Shown here piece after piece: positions 3,530 to 63,226 of a stretch of 64,000 nt of DNA (positions within the stretch are counted from its first letter, which is position 1; every line of letters begins with the position of its first letter). The position numbers and the translations under genes were made by a program. Source of the stretch: Bacteroidetes bacterium 37-13 (lineage in GTDB: Bacteria; Bacteroidota; Bacteroidia; Chitinophagales; LD1); contig MKTC01000006.1 of the NCBI GenBank assembly GCA_001897535.1, positions 124,001 to 188,000 on the forward strand. Direction: 5' to 3'. Under the pieces are notes generated by a model. The model had not been told where the DNA came from and made no database searches. It saw only the letters and a list, made by a program, of their open reading frames with translations.

Positions 3530-4978
3530 ATGAAAAAACTATCTGCACTTTTGTTCTTGTCATTATTTTTAACCGGTATCGGCTTTTCGCAACGCTATTT
3601 AACACCACAGTTTACTAATGTAAAGGTTACTAAGAATGTAAAATTTGGAGCAAACAAAAGCTTTTCAAGTCTTTTTACTCAAGTTGAAGACTTAACTATG
3701 GATGTTTACGAACCAGATGGCGACACACTAAGTGAACGCCCCGTAATTATTTTAGGACATGGCGGCTCTTATTTAGCAATGTATCTTTGGGGTGTAAAAG
3801 AGCAATACAGCATAGCTGAAATGTGTACTCGTTTTGCTAAACTCGGCTACGTGGCAGTTTCAATTGATTATCGCTTAGGCTGGGAAGCAGGTTCATCGGA
3901 TCCGGAAGTGAGAGAAAAAACCATTGTGAATGCTGTTTACAGAGCAATGCAAGATTTTAAAACTTGTATTCGATATTTTAGAAATGATTATACAACTAAT
4001 AACAACCAATGGAAAGTAAATCCATGCAAAATATTTGTAGGAGGTACAAACTCTGGCGGTTATTCAGCATTAGCAGTTTCTAACTTAAACAAGGTTAGTG
4101 AAATGGAAGCTCCAAAATTCTTAGATTCAAATGGAGACCCGTATGTTAATCAATCTTTAACCGGAGACTTTGATGGTTTTGGAGGAAGCCAAAATGTAGA
4201 TAACTATCCGGGCTATAATTCAAATGCTTCTGCTGTATTAGCTTTGGGCGCAGCAACTGGTGATACTTCATGGGTTGAAGCTGGCGAAATTCCTGTAGTT
4301 GCATTGCATGGAATTGAAGAAACAACTACTCCTTACAATACTGCAATTGTAATAACCAGTAGCGGAACAGCAATACTTATTGTAAGCGGCCCCGGAGATT
4401 TTATGCCGCGCATAGAAAGACTTGGCAATAATGACGTATTTAAAAATGCTTCATTGCCTCAAGGTCCGGCAAACAAAAATGGGAATGGACAAATAACTCA
4501 ATCAGTAGAAGGTTTATATCCGTTTTATGGTGCAAAATTTGAACCGTGGAGTTGGTATGATAATACCCAACCTGTTGGCGATCCTGCTTTAAATCCAAAT
4601 GCAAGCCAAGCAAAAGGATTAAAATATATTGACACCATTATGTCTTATACCGCACCTCGTTTTAAAGCAATTATTGACGCCAACTTACCTTGCCAAGTTA
4701 CTACTTCAATTAAGGAAGCAAAAGTTGCACAAACAACATTTAAAGTATTGCCCAATCCGGTTACTTCTTTCTTCACTATTTTTGCATCATCACCAAACGC
4801 GCAAATTGAGCAAGTTAGATTGTTTGATCTAAACGGAAAAATTGTTTTGAACCATCAAAACGAAACAGGTTACTATTCTGCTGTAAATACTGAAAACATT
4901 GCCAATGGAATTTATTTAGTTGAGATTTCAAGTAGCAACAACATGAAAGAAATGAAGAGAATCGTAGTTCAGCATTAG
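3530..4978 (+). CDS. T9SS-exported alpha/beta-hydrolase-fold protein, apparently catalytically dead
   Basis: 482 residues with a signal peptide (MKKLSALLFLSLFLTGIGFSQ), an esterase-like alpha/beta-hydrolase domain (about 55-385) and a type A T9SS sorting domain (about 400-482: KVLPNP start, GIYLVEI, basic end). The oxyanion region ILGHGGSY and the strand AVSIDYRLGW are kept. However, the nucleophile elbow reads GGTNSGGY, so N174 sits where the serine of GxSxG belongs. Alignment by eye to the paralogue at 62000-63226 puts E264 at the acid position and F337 at the histidine position. All three triad residues are therefore changed. It could be a binding protein on the cell surface; a shifted serine (S175) is a less likely nucleophile. 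Confidence 0.8.
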   Translation: MKKLSALLFLSLFLTGIGFSQRYLTPQFTNVKVTKNVKFGANKSFSSLFTQVEDLTMDVYEPDGDTLSERPVIILGHGGSYLAMYLWGVKEQYSIAEMCTRFAKLGYVAVSIDYRLGWEAGSSDPEVREKTIVNAVYRAMQDFKTCIRYFRNDYTTNNNQWKVNPCKIFVGGTNSGGYSALAVSNLNKVSEMEAPKFLDSNGDPYVNQSLTGDFDGFGGSQNVDNYPGYNSNASAVLALGAATGDTSWVEAGEIPVVALHGIEETTTPYNTAIVITSSGTAILIVSGPGDFMPRIERLGNNDVFKNASLPQGPANKNGNGQITQSVEGLYPFYGAKFEPWSWYDNTQPVGDPALNPNASQAKGLKYIDTIMSYTAPRFKAIIDANLPCQVTTSIKEAKVAQTTFKVLPNPVTSFFTIFASSPNAQIEQVRLFDLNGKIVLNHQNETGYYSAVNTENIANGIYLVEISSSNNMKEMKRIVVQH

Positions 4979-41412: not shown

Positions 41413-42636
41413 TTGAAATATTTTTTACCCATCGGCCTTACTTTAATTGCAATCCAAGCATTCTCGCAAACAGAAAACAAACAGCTTCCTGCGCGTTATT
41501 ATCGCTCGTTGGGAATCGTGAATTTTTATGAGCATAATTTTTTGGCAGCAGCCAAAGCGCTTCAGCAATCGTTGCAAATAAATCCATTAGACAAAGAAGC
41601 AAACGAAATGCTGAAAACAGTTTACGATTCTATTGGCACCAAACAACTTTCACAAAAAATGAAAGTGCGCTCACAAGCCATAAATCTCTCGTTCAAAAAA
41701 GGTGCTGATGCTGATTTGCCAAGCGTAAAAAATGATTTGCGCAGCTTGGGAAACGATTACTACAATCGCAGTGTTTACGATTCTGCTATTACGGCTTACA
41801 AACTGCATTTGCAAAATAACGCTCAAGATACTTCTGCCCTATTTTATTTAGCCAATTCCTACTTTTTTTTACGCAATTTTAATGATGCTACAAAGTACTA
41901 TGAAAGTCTGTTGGCATTAGATAAAGAACGCGCTGATGTTTATAATTTGGCTGGCGTTTGTTATCAAAACATAGACGATATTATGAAAGCACGCGACTAC
42001 TTTAAGCAGTGCTTAATTTTGAATCAAGATTTTCCGGTTGCGTACTACAACTTAGGCAAAGCGCAATATATTTTAGAGGATTTTAAGCAAGCAGAAAGCA
42101 ACTTGGTTCGCGCATCGGAAGTATTGCCAAACGATAAAGATGTGCTTTCATTATTAGGTAAGCTTTATATCGAAACAGGCCAACGCGAAAAAGCACTTAA
42201 TGTTTATGAACGTCAATTTGCACTGAATAGAAATAGTACCACGCCAAACGTTGTTTTAGGCCAACTGTATTATGAAAATAGTGATTTTGAGAAATCGATT
42301 TTTCATTTGAATAATGCTTTGGTAACAGTAAAAGACAATATTGAACTCCAAAATATTTTAGGCAATGCTTACTTGAAATTAAAGAAATATGAAACTGCTT
42401 TTCAGTTATTAAAACAAGTAGCCGATGTTTTAATAGAACGCAAAGAAGTGCAAACTGCAACAGCAAATGCTGCCAACAATTTTAAACATTACAAAGAAGC
42501 AAAGGAATATGCCAATCGCGCTTTGGCATTAGATAAAGACTATAAACCTGCGCTGCAAGAACTCGTAATTTCTTTAAAAGGATTAAAGAAAAATAGCGAT
42601 GCCAAGAAAGTGCAAAAACAGCTAAAGGGCAACTAA
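41413..42636 (+). CDS. TPR-repeat protein, exported
   Basis: 407 residues if translation starts at TTG 41413, which gives KYFLPIGLTLIAIQAFSQ, a clean signal peptide. There is no ATG in frame upstream; the frame itself opens at TTG 41362. The whole mature protein is helical tetratricopeptide repeats (for example YNRSVYDSAITAYKLHL, ALFYLANSYFFLRNFNDA, VYNLAGVCYQNIDDIMKA, AYYNLGKAQYILEDFKQA, ELQNILGNAYLKLKKYETA), about ten copies. TPR proteins hold partners together; the partner is unknown. The stop overlaps the stop of the convergent TonB receptor by four bases. Confidence 0.8.
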   Translation: MKYFLPIGLTLIAIQAFSQTENKQLPARYYRSLGIVNFYEHNFLAAAKALQQSLQINPLDKEANEMLKTVYDSIGTKQLSQKMKVRSQAINLSFKKGADADLPSVKNDLRSLGNDYYNRSVYDSAITAYKLHLQNNAQDTSALFYLANSYFFLRNFNDATKYYESLLALDKERADVYNLAGVCYQNIDDIMKARDYFKQCLILNQDFPVAYYNLGKAQYILEDFKQAESNLVRASEVLPNDKDVLSLLGKLYIETGQREKALNVYERQFALNRNSTTPNVVLGQLYYENSDFEKSIFHLNNALVTVKDNIELQNILGNAYLKLKKYETAFQLLKQVADVLIERKEVQTATANAANNFKHYKEAKEYANRALALDKDYKPALQELVISLKGLKKNSDAKKVQKQLKGN

Positions 42637-45600
42637 TTATTTGCCTTTTTTGCTTTGCGTTTATCTGTCCAACTTTTAAAGGTATCGCAATCAATATTCA
42701 CCAAAATAGAGCCGTAAATCATTCTTCCAATTCCCGGCCCGCCATAAGCTTGGTAATTTCGTTTTGAAATTAAATTACTACCTCCAAACTTAAACGTTGT
42801 ATATATTTTTTGTACATCCCAGCTTATTTGCGCATCTAAAAGCGAATAGGTTGGAATTGTTCCTGTAAATTGCGGTGAGCCTTCAAATAAAAATCCTTGA
42901 ATCCATTTGTAGTTTACATTAAAGCCAAAGCCGCGTTGCTTACCAATTTTAATATCGTAGCCACTAATGCCAATATTAAACTTGTGCTCTGGCGTGTTAA
43001 ATGCAGGAATAATAGAATCTTGCGAACCCATTCTGTTCAATTTATTCCAAGAATAGTTTCCGTTTAAAGAATAGTTTTTAATGAAGTAATAATTTATACC
43101 GATTGATGCACCATAAGTCATTACCATATCTTTGGCATTTGTTGCTATACGCCAAACTTGAAACGGGCGAATTTGGTCGTTCACAAACTTTTCGCCTTTA
43201 AATGTTGCTGCTAATTTATAGCCCAAGAAATGTTGGTAAAAACTCACATAAGCACTTGCATCAATATACACTTTTTTCGCCACTAAACCACGATAACCTA
43301 ACTCAAGCGATTGCACTCTTTCCGGGCGTACACCTTCTACAGTAAAGAAATTCAAATCGCGCAAAGAATCGGTTCTGGCAAAGTTTCCTGACTTATCAAT
43401 ATAATTAGATAACGAAGCAATAGAAACAGCAGAATCCACACCATGCAAATTCCCAATCAAAATTGCTCTACCTACATTGTAATATAGGAATTGGTCTTGC
43501 AATGTTGGATTACGCACACCCGAAGAAAACGAAAGCCGCACCGAATGATTTCCTTTATATGAATAAACCAAAGAAGCTGCCGGTGTAATAATTGGGTCTA
43601 TCGTTCCATCTTTTCGCTTCCAAGAAAAATTTTGGTTTCTATCAAAGCGAACCGTTAAAGTTGGAATGATAGAATGCCCTTCACCAAAATCAAATTTTCT
43701 TGTGATGCTGAAATAAGCACCAAATTCCCAGTTGCGAATTTTGTTGTAAGTGCTATCAGTTGCAATATATCTTCCTTCAGAATTTTGCACCCGTTTACCT
43801 AATGAATCTAATAAATAAGTTCTTGAAAATGTATCTTGAAATATTGTACCTAAAGAATAAGGAAAATACATTCTAAAACTTGCTCCTGTAATTAAGTCGA
43901 ACCAATTCTTATCCTGTCCTTTTTTCTTCACATCCCATTTGTATTCTCCTTGTACGTGAAGCATTTTACTTTTATCATAGAACTTAGTTCCGCCTTCATC
44001 AAAAGCTGTTCTGCTGGTTACTACTCTTTTAATTGAATCGTAACGAGCAGTTCCGGGAACATAGCGTTGATTGTAAACTCCGCCATTGGTAAATGTATCA
44101 GCATAATTTCTTGCATCTTGATGCCATTTTAAAACAGAATCTCGATTTACATTCATCACATTCTGTGCTCTGGCATAAGTAGTATCAAAAGCCGGGTTTA
44201 TCCAGGCACTAAAATTGGTTGATGGGCCATCAGGCATTCCGTCTAAATTATACAGTGGTCCATTTCCGCTTTGCACAATATGGTTTGCCCAATATGCTTG
44301 ATAATCTTGAGTCCAGCGGGCATCGCTTTTCCCCATTTCTTGAATTTTCAAAGCAGTAAAAACTGCATCATAAGAGTTTCCCGCATTTTCAGCAGTCATG
44401 TAAGCCCGCACATAAAATTTATCGGGTTGGCTCACCTCCATACGCACTTGGTGAAACTGTAAACCTCTTAAACTATACCTGTTATCGCCTTGGTAAACCG
44501 TAGTTCCATATCCAAAATTATAGCCTGCTTTAAACTCAATTTTATTTGTGATTTTGTAATACAAATAGGCAGAGGTTTTTATGTTAGAAATATTGTAATC
44601 TACCAAATCTTTTTCAAGATAACCTGTGCGGTAAATTTGTCCTAAACCCAAATTATCTCTAATAATTTTCGGGCTACCTAAAAAGCTATTGGCATTCTGC
44701 GACTGCAATTCATCACCATATCGGTTCACTGCATCGTAGCCTCCAGGATTTGTTGTTGGTTGTAGTGCATTTACATTCGCACTTTTAGAATAATTATCGG
44801 CAACCCAATCGTAAGCTCTTAAATAGGAAGCTGTAATTTTAAAAGCGAATTTATCTTCTCCTTTTTTGTTTTTAAATGCTTTTCCCCAGCGCACCGCAGC
44901 TTCAAACATATTTCGCTCTGCACCTTTCACAAACACGGTTAAACCTTGGTAGTAAAATGGATTTTTTGTTTGCATGGCAAGCACTCCGTTAAATGCATTT
45001 GGCCCATAAAGCGGTGAACTTGCTCCCACTATCAAATCTACTTTTTGAATATCAATTTCTGATGCTCCGGCAAAATTTCCTATGCTAAAGTTTAAACCCG
45101 GGGCTTGGTTATCTGCACCATCTAACAATTGCAACGAACGCACAGGAGAAGTGGAGTTGAAACCGCGCGTGTTTATGACTACAAAACCTAAAGAAGCAGT
45201 TGTCATATCCACTCCTTTTAAAGCGCTTAAACCTTCATAAAAAGTTGCAGAAGCAGTTTGCTTAATTTGTTGCAAACCCATGCTTTCAATGGTAAGTGGA
45301 TTTTCTTTTTGTTTTTCTGTAATACGAGAATCTACGATTTCAACCGCATTTAAAAGGTTTTCACTTTCAGTTAAGCGAATTTGAAGTTGGTTTTTAACTT
45401 GTGCCAAACTCTTTACTTCCATTTCGTAAGCATCGTAGCCAATGTACGAAAACACCAAAGTGAATGGAGGTTCTTTTGCCGCTTTAAATTTGAATCTTCC
45501 ATCAATATCCGTTTGTGCGCCAACTGTGGTTCCTTTTAGAAATACAGAAGCCCCGATAAGCGGTTCACTTGTTCGCTTATCAAATAGAATACCTGAAATT

Positions 45601-45662
45601 TCCTGAGAAAAAAGTTGAATAGTAATTGAAATGAGAATGAGTGTAAAAGTCTTTTTCATCAT
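42633..45662 (-). CDS. TonB-dependent outer-membrane receptor with carboxypeptidase-like N-terminal domain
   Basis: 1009 residues. Signal peptide (KKTFTLILISITIQLFSQ), CarboxypepD_reg-like domain (about 22-105: SGILFDKRTSEPLIGASVFL, VFSYIGYDAYEMEV), plug domain (about 130-245: VVINTRGFNSTSPVRSLQLLDG, DIQKVDLIVGASSPLYGPNAFNGVL), then a 22-strand barrel. The tail after the barrel is lysine-rich (KRKAKKANN). No SusD partner is adjacent, so it is not a classic SusCD pair; the substrate is unknown. It is probably monocistronic. Confidence 0.92.
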   Translation of the reverse strand: MMKKTFTLILISITIQLFSQEISGILFDKRTSEPLIGASVFLKGTTVGAQTDIDGRFKFKAAKEPPFTLVFSYIGYDAYEMEVKSLAQVKNQLQIRLTESENLLNAVEIVDSRITEKQKENPLTIESMGLQQIKQTASATFYEGLSALKGVDMTTASLGFVVINTRGFNSTSPVRSLQLLDGADNQAPGLNFSIGNFAGASEIDIQKVDLIVGASSPLYGPNAFNGVLAMQTKNPFYYQGLTVFVKGAERNMFEAAVRWGKAFKNKKGEDKFAFKITASYLRAYDWVADNYSKSANVNALQPTTNPGGYDAVNRYGDELQSQNANSFLGSPKIIRDNLGLGQIYRTGYLEKDLVDYNISNIKTSAYLYYKITNKIEFKAGYNFGYGTTVYQGDNRYSLRGLQFHQVRMEVSQPDKFYVRAYMTAENAGNSYDAVFTALKIQEMGKSDARWTQDYQAYWANHIVQSGNGPLYNLDGMPDGPSTNFSAWINPAFDTTYARAQNVMNVNRDSVLKWHQDARNYADTFTNGGVYNQRYVPGTARYDSIKRVVTSRTAFDEGGTKFYDKSKMLHVQGEYKWDVKKKGQDKNWFDLITGASFRMYFPYSLGTIFQDTFSRTYLLDSLGKRVQNSEGRYIATDSTYNKIRNWEFGAYFSITRKFDFGEGHSIIPTLTVRFDRNQNFSWKRKDGTIDPIITPAASLVYSYKGNHSVRLSFSSGVRNPTLQDQFLYYNVGRAILIGNLHGVDSAVSIASLSNYIDKSGNFARTDSLRDLNFFTVEGVRPERVQSLELGYRGLVAKKVYIDASAYVSFYQHFLGYKLAATFKGEKFVNDQIRPFQVWRIATNAKDMVMTYGASIGINYYFIKNYSLNGNYSWNKLNRMGSQDSIIPAFNTPEHKFNIGISGYDIKIGKQRGFGFNVNYKWIQGFLFEGSPQFTGTIPTYSLLDAQISWDVQKIYTTFKFGGSNLISKRNYQAYGGPGIGRMIYGSILVNIDCDTFKSWTDKRKAKKANN

Positions 45663-45990: not shown

Positions 45991-47730
45991 ATGAGTATAT
46001 TTAAAAACATCAAAAGTTGGGTACTAACAACTGGCTTTGCAGCAACTACACTATTTTCCAATGCTGCTACAATTAATATCACTGATAGTGATTTGGGAAA
46101 TGGAATTTACAACTGGACAAAGAACAATGTTTACTTATTGAATGGCTTGGTGTATTTAGAGTCGGGAGGCAAGTTAAATATAGAAGCCGGTACAGTAATA
46201 AAATTTAAAAATACCAATCCTGCTTCAGCCTTAATTATTACTCGTGGCGCACAAATTTTTGCAGAAGGCAGTAAAGATGACCCAATTATTTTTACCTCAG
46301 AAGCAGATGATGTAGAAAACCCTACAGATTTAGGACCAAACGATGTGGCATTGTGGGGAGGTTTAGTAATTCTAGGCAAAGCACATACTTACAAAAATGG
46401 CAATACCGAAGTAAATGTAGAAGGAATTCCAACCACAGAAACAAGAGCAAAATATGGAGATGCAAATGGTAATTTTACCAATAACGACAACTCTGGAATA
46501 CTTCGCTATGTATCTATTCGCCATGGAGGCTCTGAACTTGCACCAGGCAATGAATTACAAAACTTAACTTTAGCAGGTGTGGGTAACGGAACTATTATAG
46601 AATACATTGAAATTTATGCTTCTTCTGATGATGGAATTGAAATATTTGGAGGAACCGTAAACTTAAAATATGCTATTGTAGCCTTTGCAGATGATGACAC
46701 TTACGATTTTGATGAATACTGGACAGGCAAGGGGCAATTTTGGTTTGGATTGCAAAGAGAAACTGCAACAGGACCGGATGCCGGCTTTGAAGCTGATGGT
46801 TCTACACCTGATAATCTTGCTCCCGCTACCAATCCATTACTATACAATATTACAATAATCGGGTCAGGAGTTGGTGCTACTAAAGGTGGAACAGCTTGGT
46901 TATTACGTGCTGGTATTCAAGGGCAATACTACAATAGTATTTTAACCGACTTCCGTAGCAAGTGTTTAGAAGTTCAAGACAGACCTAAAAATTCAACTAC
47001 TGATGCGTATGCTCAATTGACTAATGGAAACATGACAATTGGCAATAATGTATTTTGGAAATGTGGCGCATCGAGTACACAACCTTTAGATGCATCATCA
47101 ACTGGAATTATACGTGTTACCGTTACTGATACTTGCTCCGGCACACCAAATTCACCATGCAATACAAATGGCGAAGGCGGCTCTGCTGTTACGTTTCTTG
47201 TTAATCATTTAACATCAAACAATAATACTATTGCTGACCCTCAAATTACTTTTATTGATAGAGAACAAAATGAAACTTTAGACCCAAGACCTTCAATTTC
47301 CGGTGCCGCATATTCGGGAACACTTGCAGCATATCCAGCAAACGATAGCTTTTTCACTCACGTAAACTACAAAGGAGCCTTTGATGCAGATGCTAATAAT
47401 TTTTGGGCTGCCAAATGGACTACATTATACAAAAATAATCACCTAAGAAAAGACATTCACACCGGAATACTCCCTACCAGTATTAAAAATCAAGTAAATA
47501 TTTTTCCTAACCCAGCTCAAAATGATTTTACCATTGATTTTAATGGAACTTTTTATGAACGAATTGAAATAATAAACAGCAGCGGGCAGCAAATTAAATC
47601 GTTCAAGGTATTACCAAATACTTTACAAATAAATGTAAATACAGAAACACTAAGCGAAGGACTATACTTAGTTAGACTACTTAACCGTAGTGGAGAAACT
47701 TTAATTAAAAAGCTTTCTATAAGTAAATAA
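45991..47730 (+). CDS. T9SS-exported beta-helix-like surface protein
   Basis: 579 residues. Signal peptide to LFSNA, then a beta-helix-like body whose repeated turns are rich in G, N and I (GLVYLESGGKLNIEAGTVIKF, LIITRGAQIFAEGSKDDPIIF, LTLAGVGNGTIIEYIEIYAS, SSDDGIEIFGGTVNLKYAIV). The C-terminal 80 residues are a type A T9SS sorting domain (NIFPNPAQNDFTIDF ... GLYLVRLLNRSGETLIKKL). There is no enzymatic motif beyond acidic clusters (ADDDTYDFDEYW) that could bind cations. The TonB receptor just downstream suggests the protein captures or processes the receptor's substrate at the surface. Confidence 0.82.
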   Translation: MSIFKNIKSWVLTTGFAATTLFSNAATINITDSDLGNGIYNWTKNNVYLLNGLVYLESGGKLNIEAGTVIKFKNTNPASALIITRGAQIFAEGSKDDPIIFTSEADDVENPTDLGPNDVALWGGLVILGKAHTYKNGNTEVNVEGIPTTETRAKYGDANGNFTNNDNSGILRYVSIRHGGSELAPGNELQNLTLAGVGNGTIIEYIEIYASSDDGIEIFGGTVNLKYAIVAFADDDTYDFDEYWTGKGQFWFGLQRETATGPDAGFEADGSTPDNLAPATNPLLYNITIIGSGVGATKGGTAWLLRAGIQGQYYNSILTDFRSKCLEVQDRPKNSTTDAYAQLTNGNMTIGNNVFWKCGASSTQPLDASSTGIIRVTVTDTCSGTPNSPCNTNGEGGSAVTFLVNHLTSNNNTIADPQITFIDREQNETLDPRPSISGAAYSGTLAAYPANDSFFTHVNYKGAFDADANNFWAAKWTTLYKNNHLRKDIHTGILPTSIKNQVNIFPNPAQNDFTIDFNGTFYERIEIINSSGQQIKSFKVLPNTLQINVNTETLSEGLYLVRLLNRSGETLIKKLSISK

Positions 47731-47763
47731 ATAATGCCCAAAGCACTTTTCATTTCTTTTAAA

Positions 47764-47799
47764 AAAAGGCAAGACATACAAAAACTATGTCTTGCCTTT
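47764..47799 (+). terminator. Strong intergenic hairpin (attenuator or terminator)
   Basis: Perfect 14-base stem aaaggcaagacata (47765-47778) with tatgtcttgccttt (47786-47799) around a seven-base loop. The T tract after it is short (CTTTCAATTT), so readthrough is likely. It separates the T9SS gene from the TonB receptor, and an A run before it would make it an efficient terminator for antisense transcription. Confidence 0.65.
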
Positions 47800-47823
47800 C
47801 AATTTAACACACAACAAACAGTA

Positions 47824-50760
47824 ATGAATAAAATACTATTTTCAATTACACTTTTACTATTTACAATAAATGATCTCAAATCACAAACAGGAACACTTTC
47901 AGGAAAAATAACTGACAGCAAAACCGGAGAAACATTAATTGGTGTAACAGTTTACATTGTCGGAAGCAACAATGGCACTACCACTGATTTAGATGGGAAC
48001 TATAACTTAACCTTAACTCCCGGAATTTATGATATTGCCACTTCATATCTTTCCTACAAAAAAGAAACTAAAACTGCAGTTGAAATAAAGCTGAACCAAG
48101 TAACCGCACTCAATTTCTTCTTAGAATCTGAAGCTACTGAAATTAAAGAAGTGGTGATTGAAACAAAGAGAGTGAGAAATACAGATGCTGCCATCATTTC
48201 CATTCAAAGAAAATCCTATGTTATTCAAGATGGAATTTCATCTGAACAACTCGCCAAAACAGGTTCAAGCAACGTAGCAGAATCTTTAAAACAAATGACT
48301 GGTGCAAACATAGAAGACGGAAAATATATGACCATGCGTGGATTAGGCGACAGATATTCCATTTCCCAACTAAACGGGCTAAATATGGCTAGTACCGATC
48401 CATACAAAAACAGTTCTTCATTAGATATTATTCCATCTTCAATGATTGATAATATTGTTACACTAAAATCATTTACACCTGATATGCCAGGTAGTTTTGC
48501 AGGAGGGTTACTAAACATTACCACAAAATCTTTCCCCGATAAATTTAATGTAAGTTTATCTACCAGCGCAGGATTCAATACACAAACTACATTCAAAAAT
48601 TTTAAAACTACGCCCGAAAAATCAACCTTTCAATTTTTGGGTTTTAAAGGAGCAGAACGAGAGATGAACAATCTAATATTTGAACCTGGTGTATTGGAAA
48701 CAATGACAAAAGGCGCTTACCTTGATGCCAGAAAAGTAGATGAAAAATTTGACAACTTTAGAGCTAACTTCAATAAAGTAAGCAAATCATTCAAAAATGG
48801 TTATGTACCCAAAAACAAAACAGCACCAATCAACTACAATATAAATTTTTCACTTGGAAACAAGTTTAAACTTTTTAAAAAAGATTTAGGTTTTTTCATT
48901 GCAGTTAATCATAATAGAGATTTTCAAAATTACCAAAATGCCTCTATCAATACATATATCAATCTTAACCAAGAAGCATTATTTCCATACCAATCTTTAA
49001 GCGAGAATCGCTCTGTTGAAAATGGTCAATTAGGTGCATTAGCTAATCTTGCCTACAAACTTAGTAATAACCATACCATTACCTTTAATGTACTTTACAA
49101 TAATGATGCTGAAATATCTGCAAGAGAACAATCTGGAGGGTACACCGGCCAGGTTTCTGACACTAGAGCAATTTTTAATGTAAAATCAATGGAATTTATA
49201 CAGCGCCAAACTGTAAGTCCGCAACTCTTTTCTAAACACATTTTTCCAAAACTTAAAAATGCTGAATTAGAGTTAGCAGCAAGCTACACCGCTTCTAAAC
49301 AAGATGAACCGGGTTTGCGATATTTTGCCTATTCAACAGTAATAGACTCAGTATATTTTGATGCAAATGGCAATCCATTAGAAACGCCTTTACTTGATAC
49401 CGTTTACAGTATTCAAAACTCAGAATATCAATATCCATTCCAGTTTGTAAGACAACTAAAAGACCAGCAATATCAAGCAAAAGCAGATTTTACTTTACCC
49501 ATAGGCAAAACAGGAATAAATAAAATAAAAATGGGAGTATATTTTAGTTCTCTCAATAGAGATTTTCGAGAATATCGCTTTCAATCTACACCATCTCCCG
49601 GTTTGCCATTATCATCGGGATTCACTACCTACAATGGTAATTTTGATAAATTCTTTTCTTCTGAAAACTATGGAATAATTGACACTCAGTTTAATGCAAG
49701 CGGAGAAGCTATCCGTTATATCCCAGGCTATTATTACGTAAATAATACTATTCCAAGAAATTTCTACACTGGAAAGCAAACCGTGTTTGCCGGTTATGCT
49801 ATGGGTATTTTCAACATTACAAAAAACCTAAAAGTTGTAGGCGGCTTAAGAACAGAATACACACTTATGCAGGCAACAAGTCAAGATACATCACTACCTA
49901 TTTCAAATAGCAAATTCCTCGATTTTTTACCTTCCTTAAATTTTATTTACTCAATCAACTCAAAAATGAATATCAGGCTCTCAGGCTCTCGCACTATTGT
50001 GCGACCTAACCTAAGAGAAATTGCACCTTTTGAACAGTTTGACACTAAAAATGGATTCTTTTTGTTAGGCAATCCAAACTTAAAACGAACTTCCATTTGG
50101 AATGTAGATTTACGATGGGATTTCTTCCCTCGTTCGGGAGAACTAATTGCCATAAGTTATTACTACAAACACTTCAGCAATCCAATATTCAAGCAATATA
50201 ATCCAGGAGCCACAATACCTGAATTGCAGTTCATAAATATAAAGAATGCATTTATCACAGGTATAGAAATTGAGTTTCGTAAAAGCCTCAATTTCATCTC
50301 TCCCCAAATTAAAGAACTTAGCGTGAGCGCTAATTTTGCATACATTTATTCAAGATACAATATTCCGGAAAATGAAATTGCCAGTTCCTCATTTGTAGAT
50401 TCCGGCTATACAGCAAAAACTAGACCTTTTCAGGGACAATCACCATATATTGTAAATTTAATCTTAGCTTACGATAATGATAAAATAGGATTAAAATCTG
50501 CATTATCATTTAATATTTCAGGAAAAAAACTATACAACATTGCCCTATTCGCCACGCCTGATATTTATGAAGATATACGTCCAATGTTAAACTTTAAAAT
50601 TTCAAAAACATTCGGCAAATATTTCAACGTTTCATTTGCCGCAAAAAATTTAATAAATCCATATTTTAGCAGAATACAAACTCACCGAGGGGAAAATTTT
50701 TATGCAGAAAAATACCAAGTCGGTCGGAGTTTTATAATTGGCTTCGACTTTAAGTTTTAG
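47824..50760 (+). CDS. TonB-dependent receptor (carboxypeptidase-regulatory N-terminus, RGLGDRYS-type plug)
   Basis: 978 residues from the ATG at 47824 (MNKILFSITLLLFTINDLKS, signal peptide). The frame opens at 47734, but that segment contains the intergenic hairpin and is not signal-peptide-like. Order: CarboxypepD_reg-like domain (about 25-110), plug (about 120-240: SSNVAESLKQMTGANIEDG, MTMRGLGDRYSISQLNGL, PGSFAGGLLNITTKSFP), then a barrel ending RSFIIGFDFKF. Substrate unknown. Ninety-three bases after the T9SS beta-helix gene, so probably the same unit. No SusD. Confidence 0.92.
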   Translation: MNKILFSITLLLFTINDLKSQTGTLSGKITDSKTGETLIGVTVYIVGSNNGTTTDLDGNYNLTLTPGIYDIATSYLSYKKETKTAVEIKLNQVTALNFFLESEATEIKEVVIETKRVRNTDAAIISIQRKSYVIQDGISSEQLAKTGSSNVAESLKQMTGANIEDGKYMTMRGLGDRYSISQLNGLNMASTDPYKNSSSLDIIPSSMIDNIVTLKSFTPDMPGSFAGGLLNITTKSFPDKFNVSLSTSAGFNTQTTFKNFKTTPEKSTFQFLGFKGAEREMNNLIFEPGVLETMTKGAYLDARKVDEKFDNFRANFNKVSKSFKNGYVPKNKTAPINYNINFSLGNKFKLFKKDLGFFIAVNHNRDFQNYQNASINTYINLNQEALFPYQSLSENRSVENGQLGALANLAYKLSNNHTITFNVLYNNDAEISAREQSGGYTGQVSDTRAIFNVKSMEFIQRQTVSPQLFSKHIFPKLKNAELELAASYTASKQDEPGLRYFAYSTVIDSVYFDANGNPLETPLLDTVYSIQNSEYQYPFQFVRQLKDQQYQAKADFTLPIGKTGINKIKMGVYFSSLNRDFREYRFQSTPSPGLPLSSGFTTYNGNFDKFFSSENYGIIDTQFNASGEAIRYIPGYYYVNNTIPRNFYTGKQTVFAGYAMGIFNITKNLKVVGGLRTEYTLMQATSQDTSLPISNSKFLDFLPSLNFIYSINSKMNIRLSGSRTIVRPNLREIAPFEQFDTKNGFFLLGNPNLKRTSIWNVDLRWDFFPRSGELIAISYYYKHFSNPIFKQYNPGATIPELQFINIKNAFITGIEIEFRKSLNFISPQIKELSVSANFAYIYSRYNIPENEIASSSFVDSGYTAKTRPFQGQSPYIVNLILAYDNDKIGLKSALSFNISGKKLYNIALFATPDIYEDIRPMLNFKISKTFGKYFNVSFAAKNLINPYFSRIQTHRGENFYAEKYQVGRSFIIGFDFKF

Positions 50761-61999: not shown

Positions 62000-63226
62000 T
62001 TGAAAAATTTACTACTTCTATTCACAATAGCTTTAATAGCAATTTCAAATAATAGCTTTTCGCAGTGTGATAACGGCAGGTTCGTAAACGATATTTTCAA
62101 TGTAAAAAGCAGCGTTGGTGTTCGATTTGGCGGCAACTATAAATTTGATGGCACTTGGCAGGAACTCTACATGAATGTGTATGAACCGGACAGCACCGAC
62201 CTTTTGCCGCATAGACCATTGATAATTTTAGCTTTTGGTGGCAGTTTTACTTTTGGCAGCCGCACCAGCCCCGATATTTTGAAACTTTGCAATGCTTTCG
62301 CAAAAAAAGGTTACGTAACTGCAACCATAGATTATCGTCTTGGTTTTGAAAATGGAAACGATAGCGACACCAACCAGTTTAAAGCACTCATGCGAGCAGC
62401 ACAAGATATGCGTGCTTCAATTCGCTATTTCTATAAAGATGCTTCAAGCGATAATATTTACAGAGTTGATACTACGCAAATTTTCATTGGTGGCGTGAGT
62501 GCCGGAGGTTTCACAGCGCTTAATTTAGCTTATGGCAAACAAGATACGCTTTCAATAGCAAGACCACCTTTTGTAGATGATGCTTTGGTACAAGTTGGAG
62601 GAGTAACAGGCAATAGCGGAAACCCGGGCTACAGTGAAAAAGTGCGCGGAGTAATAAACCTTTGTGGAGCTATTGCCGATACAGTTTGGCTGATGCCCAA
62701 CGACCCTATTTTATGTGGCGTTCACGGTACAGCCGACCCTTTAGTACCTTGTTTTTATGATAGCGCAAAAGCTGCCAGTTCAGTTGAAGCAATGATGTAT
62801 GGTTCAGGAGATTTGAACAACCGCGCACAGCATATCGGATTAGCACATTCTTTTTACTTTTTCCAAGGCGCTTCGCACGTTCCGTTTGTGTTCAACCAAA
62901 ATTATATGGACACAACGATTTGGGTAATTAGAGATTTCCTTGCTCAACATGTTGTTTGCGGTGGCTTGAACACAATAAACGAAGCCAATAATTTTAGTGT
63001 AAAAGTTTATCCTAATCCTTTTTATGGAAATTTTATAGTTGAAACAAATAATGAAAAACCTATAACAGCAACACTTACCGATATAACTGGCAAAACTATT
63101 TTGTTTGAAAAAATAACAGATAAAAAGCAGTTTCTTATTGAAAGAGAAAAAGGCATTTACTTCTTGAAACTTCAAGCAGAAGGCAATACTGCAAGTAAAG
63201 TTTACAAGCTCATACAATTAGAATAG
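62000..63226 (+). CDS. T9SS-exported alpha/beta-hydrolase (esterase), intact triad
   Basis: 408 residues starting at TTG: in-frame stop TAA at 61979-61981 leaves only this codon ahead of the signal peptide (KNLLLLFTIALIAISNNSFSQ). The triad is visible: S167 in GGVSAGGF, D246 in HGTADPLVP and H293 in GASHVPF. A type A T9SS domain follows (about 330-408: VYPNPFYGNF, GIYFLKL). It is a surface or secreted esterase; the substrate is unknown. It is a paralogue of 3530-4978 (same order, ALxxAxxDxR-(A/T)-(S/C)-IRYF and LNYxLG-like blocks). Thirty-nine bases after the PaaK-like gene, possibly cotranscribed. Confidence 0.86.
   Translation: MKNLLLLFTIALIAISNNSFSQCDNGRFVNDIFNVKSSVGVRFGGNYKFDGTWQELYMNVYEPDSTDLLPHRPLIILAFGGSFTFGSRTSPDILKLCNAFAKKGYVTATIDYRLGFENGNDSDTNQFKALMRAAQDMRASIRYFYKDASSDNIYRVDTTQIFIGGVSAGGFTALNLAYGKQDTLSIARPPFVDDALVQVGGVTGNSGNPGYSEKVRGVINLCGAIADTVWLMPNDPILCGVHGTADPLVPCFYDSAKAASSVEAMMYGSGDLNNRAQHIGLAHSFYFFQGASHVPFVFNQNYMDTTIWVIRDFLAQHVVCGGLNTINEANNFSVKVYPNPFYGNFIVETNNEKPITATLTDITGKTILFEKITDKKQFLIEREKGIYFLKLQAEGNTASKVYKLIQLE

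Follow-up and report, generated by a model that had tools for sequence, protein, structure and literature searches.

The gene at positions 3530-4978 (forward strand) of the window, meaning the whole 64,000-nucleotide stretch of DNA analyzed here, encodes a protein that looks like an esterase destined for export through the type IX secretion system (T9SS). The first-pass annotation proposed that all three of its catalytic residues have been replaced and that it serves a binding role at the cell surface. The locus therefore raises two questions: is the catalytic triad truly lost, and, if so, what is the protein kept for?

Domain organization of the exported protein

The open reading frame, its Pfam hits and its orthologues identify a pseudoesterase of 482 residues with predicted T9SS export. 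Its N-terminus, hydrophobic by sequence, is assigned a signal peptide (residues 1-20, MKKLSALLFLSLFLTGIGFS, positions 3530-3589, forward strand; mean Kyte-Doolittle value of 2.1 over residues 4-18). The ensuing alpha/beta-hydrolase-type domain (residues ~22-390, positions 3593-4699, forward strand) is delineated by PF20434 and by profile-profile alignment with active paralogues. Pfam reports the BD-FAE family PF20434 at residues 57-198 (42.8 bits for a cut-off of 26.8, E 5.5e-11), and this family matches 23 out of the 23 members of the pseudoesterase clade tested (E<=0.001). The original BD-FAE was discovered via a polysaccharide-utilisation locus and possesses a Ser128-Asp237-His269 catalytic triad (PMC8165983). 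Lastly, a T9SS type-A C-terminal sorting domain covers residues 407-479 (positions 4748-4966, forward strand), with hits to Por_Secre_tail (PF18962, 50.9 bits for a cut-off of 27) and TIGR04183 (42.1 bits). The protein hence combines the two features of T9SS cargo, a signal peptide and a Por_Secre_tail, and the tail is present in 23 out of 23 aligned members of the clade. The genome also encodes SprA, a part of the T9SS translocon (SprA_N, 489.9 bits). A Pfam scan of the protein returned no SusD family domain.

Replacement of the catalytic triad

The window contains a second T9SS esterase gene, of the active type (positions 62000-63226, forward strand), whose product carries the triad S167/D246/H293. 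BLASTP aligns the pseudoesterase with this paralogue at 27% identity (E 4e-39), setting GGTNSGGY over GGVSAGGF, and profile-profile alignment between 23 pseudo-type and 12 active sequences (probability 100%, E 7e-86) places N174/E264/F337 on S167/D246/H293. The two alignments agree that all three triad residues are replaced, as first proposed. N174 (positions 4049-4051, forward strand) stands at the nucleophile position, a Ser in active paralogues, and its codon is AAC, as had been read initially; E264 (GAA, 4319-4321, forward strand) stands at the acid position, an Asp in active paralogues, and F337 (TTT, 4538-4540, forward strand) at that of the catalytic His. A profile search against solved structures matches column 174 to the first Ser of GDSSGG in 6nkf and to the Ser of GGSAGG in 5ao9. 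Since these are the nucleophile-elbow serines, S175 corresponds to nucleophile+1. AF2 models, each built from only three input sequences, reached pLDDT values of 42 and 37 and carry none of the structural statements made here, all of which rest on sequence alignments.

The replacement extends to a whole clade. Splitting 114 homologues by profile score, with the cut set at the gap in the scores, gave 91 pseudo-type and 23 active-type proteins. All 23 of the latter read S/A/D/H at positions 174/175/264/337, while a Ser at the nucleophile column and a His at the His column are each found in 0/91 members of the pseudo clade, a contrast much too sharp for chance. Position 174 is occupied by G in 63 of them, N in 25, and E, D and A in one each; position 264 by D in 71, E in 18, N in one and S in one; and position 337 by S, F, G, A, Y, T, N or E, never by H. 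As D remains in 71 out of 91, E264 is a conservative change, and the diagnostic losses are those of Ser and His. The N/E/F combination is the version of the window's own family, the nearest families reading N/D/F or N/D/Y and the remaining families of the order mostly G/D/(S, A, G). Within the window's family it is kept in 17 out of 18 proteins, the other having Y for F, and no orthologue keeps the normal triad, so that the sequence finding named in the first-pass annotation as refuting its reading did not arise. By these alignments, the Ser-Asp-His triad is lost in the protein and in its clade.

Three members depart from the common pattern. One tandem copy carries E at the nucleophile position (GQETGG; L086 in G177), another copy carries D (GDDSGG; L124, G260:C31) and lies beside a TonB-dependent receptor match with one internal TAA, and the most divergent member reads A/S/E, on a small contig devoid of receptor (L134/L185, G139:C219).

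Age, selection and spread

In a maximum-likelihood tree computed by a quick search without bootstrap, with the four columns 174/175/264/337 masked, one branch separates 46 pseudo-type from 22 active proteins (SH-aLRT 99). The distribution is best explained by a triad loss that would predate the divergence of the families of the order. The coding sequences have remained under purifying selection, with dN/dS values of 0.05-0.17 (Nei-Gojobori, where dS is finite; several dS values are high). Moreover, residues specific to the pseudo clade are fixed or nearly so: W118 (100%), R377 (99%), R128 (97%), N225 (96%), Y178 (96%) and W340 (92%). The clade is therefore not drifting, and appears constrained for something other than catalysis. 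Together with the tail present throughout and the support for the single-branch split, this selection upholds the initial view of a gene maintained as an exported protein.

Strong matches were obtained in 26 out of 61 genomes comprising the source genome and its relatives, and the pseudoesterase occurs in 117 of 299 genomes of the order (~40%). A search of 394 genomes across the phylum added one strong match outside the order, in G339, a genome of the same class but of a different order; this match reads G/D/S and is thus of the pseudo type. Six weaker matches examined in the same sample, from the class and the phylum, all read S/D/H. As G339 supplies the sole new strong match from outside, the pseudo type is concentrated in the order, with a rare outlier. 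The G339 gene (L150, G339:C17:22383-23615) lies in an open frame of 662 residues, longer than usual. A related-locus search in genome contigs returned one locus, whose protein matches the G004 copy at the ends compared. Tandem duplicates of the pseudo gene occur in G024 (L016/L037), G177 (L086), G119 (L120) and G114 (L131).

Association with a TonB-dependent receptor

Positions 42633-45662 of the window (reverse strand) encode a TonB-dependent receptor (TBDT) of 1009 residues, comprising CarbopepD_reg_2, Plug and barrel domains (PF07715 and PF00593 both above cut-off). It is the orthologue of the receptor whose gene directly precedes that of the pseudoesterase elsewhere. Searching the 299 genomes of the order with a pseudoesterase profile and a receptor profile found the TBDT in 118 genomes and both genes in 113; the hypergeometric value for this co-occurrence, 2e-70, ignores phylogeny and is not readable as a probability. 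In 94 genomes, the TBDT gene lies directly upstream on the same strand, with gaps of 18-366 bp (median 46.5 bp), an operon-like adjacency. Most non-adjacent exceptions have the two genes on different contigs. G028 and G029 were counted as receptor-only; in both, the receptor gene sits at the edge of a contig, next to a pseudoesterase fragment in the case of G028. The pseudoesterase without a detected TBDT occurs in three genomes of f12 and one of f3.

In the window itself, 38 kb separate the two genes, which are encoded on opposite strands; both are likewise retained though separated in G001, G003, G021, G022 and G031. The neighbours of the window pseudoesterase gene encode a nitrilase-type hydrolase, a DUF4349 protein and an SprB-like protein, none of which is conserved beside it in the 20 neighbourhoods compared.

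The window receptor shares 77% identity with its G004 orthologue, on which TIGR04056 (SusC/RagA) scores 102 bits for a cut-off of 368. Partner receptors elsewhere (~940-1000 residues) contain CarbopepD_reg_2 and Plug domains, with a recognized barrel in most of those tested, and fall well under the SusC cut-off. No PF07980 or PF14322 match occurs anywhere in the genome, which by these two families has no SusD gene. As a check of specificity, lower-scoring TBDT paralogues were inspected in families f1, f18, f19 and f21; none is flanked by a hydrolase or pseudoenzyme gene apart from one in G006. There, a pseudoesterase gene precedes a different TBDT paralogue by ~140 bp and the usual orthologue is on another contig (L184, L183), possibly a partner swap. 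Elsewhere in the window, a T9SS-tailed protein of 579 residues with no other Pfam domain (positions 45991-47730, forward strand) is followed after 3 bp by a 1008-residue receptor-like protein (47734-50760, forward strand), possibly a second tandem pair of T9SS cargo and TBDT.

Active esterases and receptor cassettes

In several genomes an active esterase accompanies the pair. The gene order active esterase-TBDT-pseudoesterase is found in G013, from the window's family (f1), and in G107, G123, G087 and G076 (f3). In G021 and G022, an active esterase with an intact triad (47-48% identical to the 62000-63226 protein) lies ~50-70 bp upstream of the TBDT, the pseudoesterase being on another contig. 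The relatives of the 62000-63226 protein in G013, G021 and G022 (47-49% identity) are encoded directly upstream of the partner TBDT. Since its relatives adjoin the partner receptor elsewhere, the three proteins of the window look like one cassette that has been dispersed.

Other genes are found near these cassettes. At four f3 loci (L081, L083, L084 and L085), the active esterase-TBDT (pseudoesterase) cassette is immediately preceded by a gene for a leucine-rich-repeat protein. The GH5, GDSL lipase and LRR genes that flank some cassettes might have hinted at the substrate, but were set aside because each was seen in one genome or family only. A separate observation concerns a 710-residue T9SS protein (G000:C10:26459-27940; L002, L005) with a tandem of two hydrolase domains, each bearing a GGNSAG elbow.

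Proposed role and alternatives

The pseudoesterase is kept, usually beside one TBDT gene, which suggests capture for a receptor instead of cutting. We consider it probable that the 3530-4978 product, delivered by the T9SS, serves the 42633-45662 receptor as a non-catalytic capture protein or lid. A binding role was already advanced in the first-pass annotation; it is still a deduction here, and the linkage to the TBDT gives it a concrete form that it lacked. If we assume this role, a BD-FAE-type lineage would have lost its Ser nucleophile and its catalytic His before the families of the order diverged, and the T9SS would export the resulting protein to the cell surface. There, the old esterase pocket may bind an ester-bearing ligand, or its acid or alcohol product, and contact with the receptor would hand this ligand over for TonB-driven import. 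Where the cassette is complete, preparing the ligand would fall to the active sister esterase. Points against a capture protein or lid are the separation of the two genes in this genome and the four genomes with a pseudoesterase but no detected TBDT; moreover, the known TBDT lids are lipoproteins, while T9SS type-A cargo is either released or anchored in another way.

Alternatively, the protein could be a surface adhesin or structural binding protein devoid of any transport role, its adjacency to the TBDT reflecting co-regulation only: T9SS type-A cargo is typically cell-exposed or released, and neuroligins, cell adhesion proteins of the same superfamily, are among the weak profile matches. 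Such a function seems unlikely, since one TBDT orthologue co-occurs closely and specifically with the pseudoesterase and the paralogues inspected, G006 excepted, do not. The pseudoesterase could instead regulate or stabilize its active paralogue, as a heteromer or a decoy, and do no work with the TBDT. Active and inactive paralogues do share a cassette in G013, G107, G123, G087 and G076, and both are T9SS cargo. However, in many genomes, mainly of f18, the pseudoesterase is the only family member at E<=1e-25 among the limited candidates scored per genome, which makes a regulator of the esterase less likely, and the TBDT is present in 113 of the 117 genomes bearing the pseudoesterase; we regard this role, too, as improbable.

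Residual catalysis by an unusual active site, built from S/T175, E264 and another residue such as H77, would account for the S or T found at 175 in 90/91 members and the carboxylate at 264 in 89/91. Nevertheless, a Ser at nucleophile+1 also occurs in the ordinary lipase/esterase 6nkf (GDSSGG), and no conserved substitute His was found in the clade, where the His column is mostly S, F, G, A or Y. H77, the sole His conserved at 91% (H260 reaches 74%), is the His of the oxyanion HG motif, and some natural members carry P, R, Y or G in its place. Residue 78 of the HGGS oxyanion motif also varies, being T, N, A, P or S in almost every member, although the window protein keeps HGGS. Cryptic catalysis is thus very unlikely. 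A nucleophile shifted to S175, at nucleophile+1 by alignment, is disfavoured on the same grounds, the solved esterases placing the N174 column on the nucleophile Ser and the clade offering no conserved His. A local sequencing error or a decaying gene can practically be dismissed, as N/E/F (with one Y) recurs in 18 out of 18 sampled same-family proteins from independent genomes, the frames are open throughout, dN/dS is well below 1 and nothing was found in its favour.

Relationship with known systems

As a capture protein or lid, the pseudoesterase would combine traits known from separate systems. It resembles the BD-FAE-type carbohydrate esterases (PF20434) by a profile score above the cut-off, but its clade has lost the Ser and the His. 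The likeness proposed with BtuG, XusB and SusD (PMC10404256, PMC13142918, PMC7618045) is that of a surface protein encoded with a TBDT, binding the ligand and capping or feeding the barrel. These three are lipoproteins of other folds, whereas the pseudoesterase joins an alpha/beta-hydrolase-type domain to a T9SS sorting domain, and no sequence relation to SusD was found. The utilisomes, which assemble SusCD, a surface glycanase and a glycan-binding protein (PMC7618045), follow a similar cassette logic of enzyme, TBDT and binder, the last being the part proposed for the pseudoesterase; the present cassette differs in having no SusD or lipoprotein and an esterase instead of a glycanase. Neuroligins and other non-catalytic alpha/beta-hydrolase proteins (PMC5943944) reuse an esterase-type fold for binding, as the pseudoesterase would, but are eukaryotic, independent of T9SS and of separate origin. 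By its model name, the T9SS-dependent M6-like inactivated metalloprotease (NCBIfam NF052323) is a precedent for dead T9SS cargo; its catalytic domain is unrelated, and its match to the pseudoesterase is confined to the sorting tail that both carry. Inactive alpha/beta-hydrolase proteins are already known, as are TBDT partners; their combination through T9SS was not found in the open-access literature searched.

Pseudoenzymes are usually recognized singly; here, one triad loss appears to have been followed by conservation in ~40% of the sampled genomes of the order, and the genomic context names a likely partner. The fuller scenario, which we put forward tentatively, is an outer-membrane uptake system of a type absent from the papers searched, in which a SusD-less TBDT has a T9SS-delivered dead esterase as its capture lid. 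It would descend from an ancestral cassette of esterase and receptor, whose active sister continues to process the substrate, and would be conserved across Chitinophagales. Annotating such pseudoesterase genes as esterases would be wrong. If the proposed role is true, the protein would add to the TonB-receptor partners a type brought to the surface by T9SS, would illustrate a route from a surface esterase to a binding subunit, and would provide a directly testable gene pair in a genome in which neither SusD family was detected.
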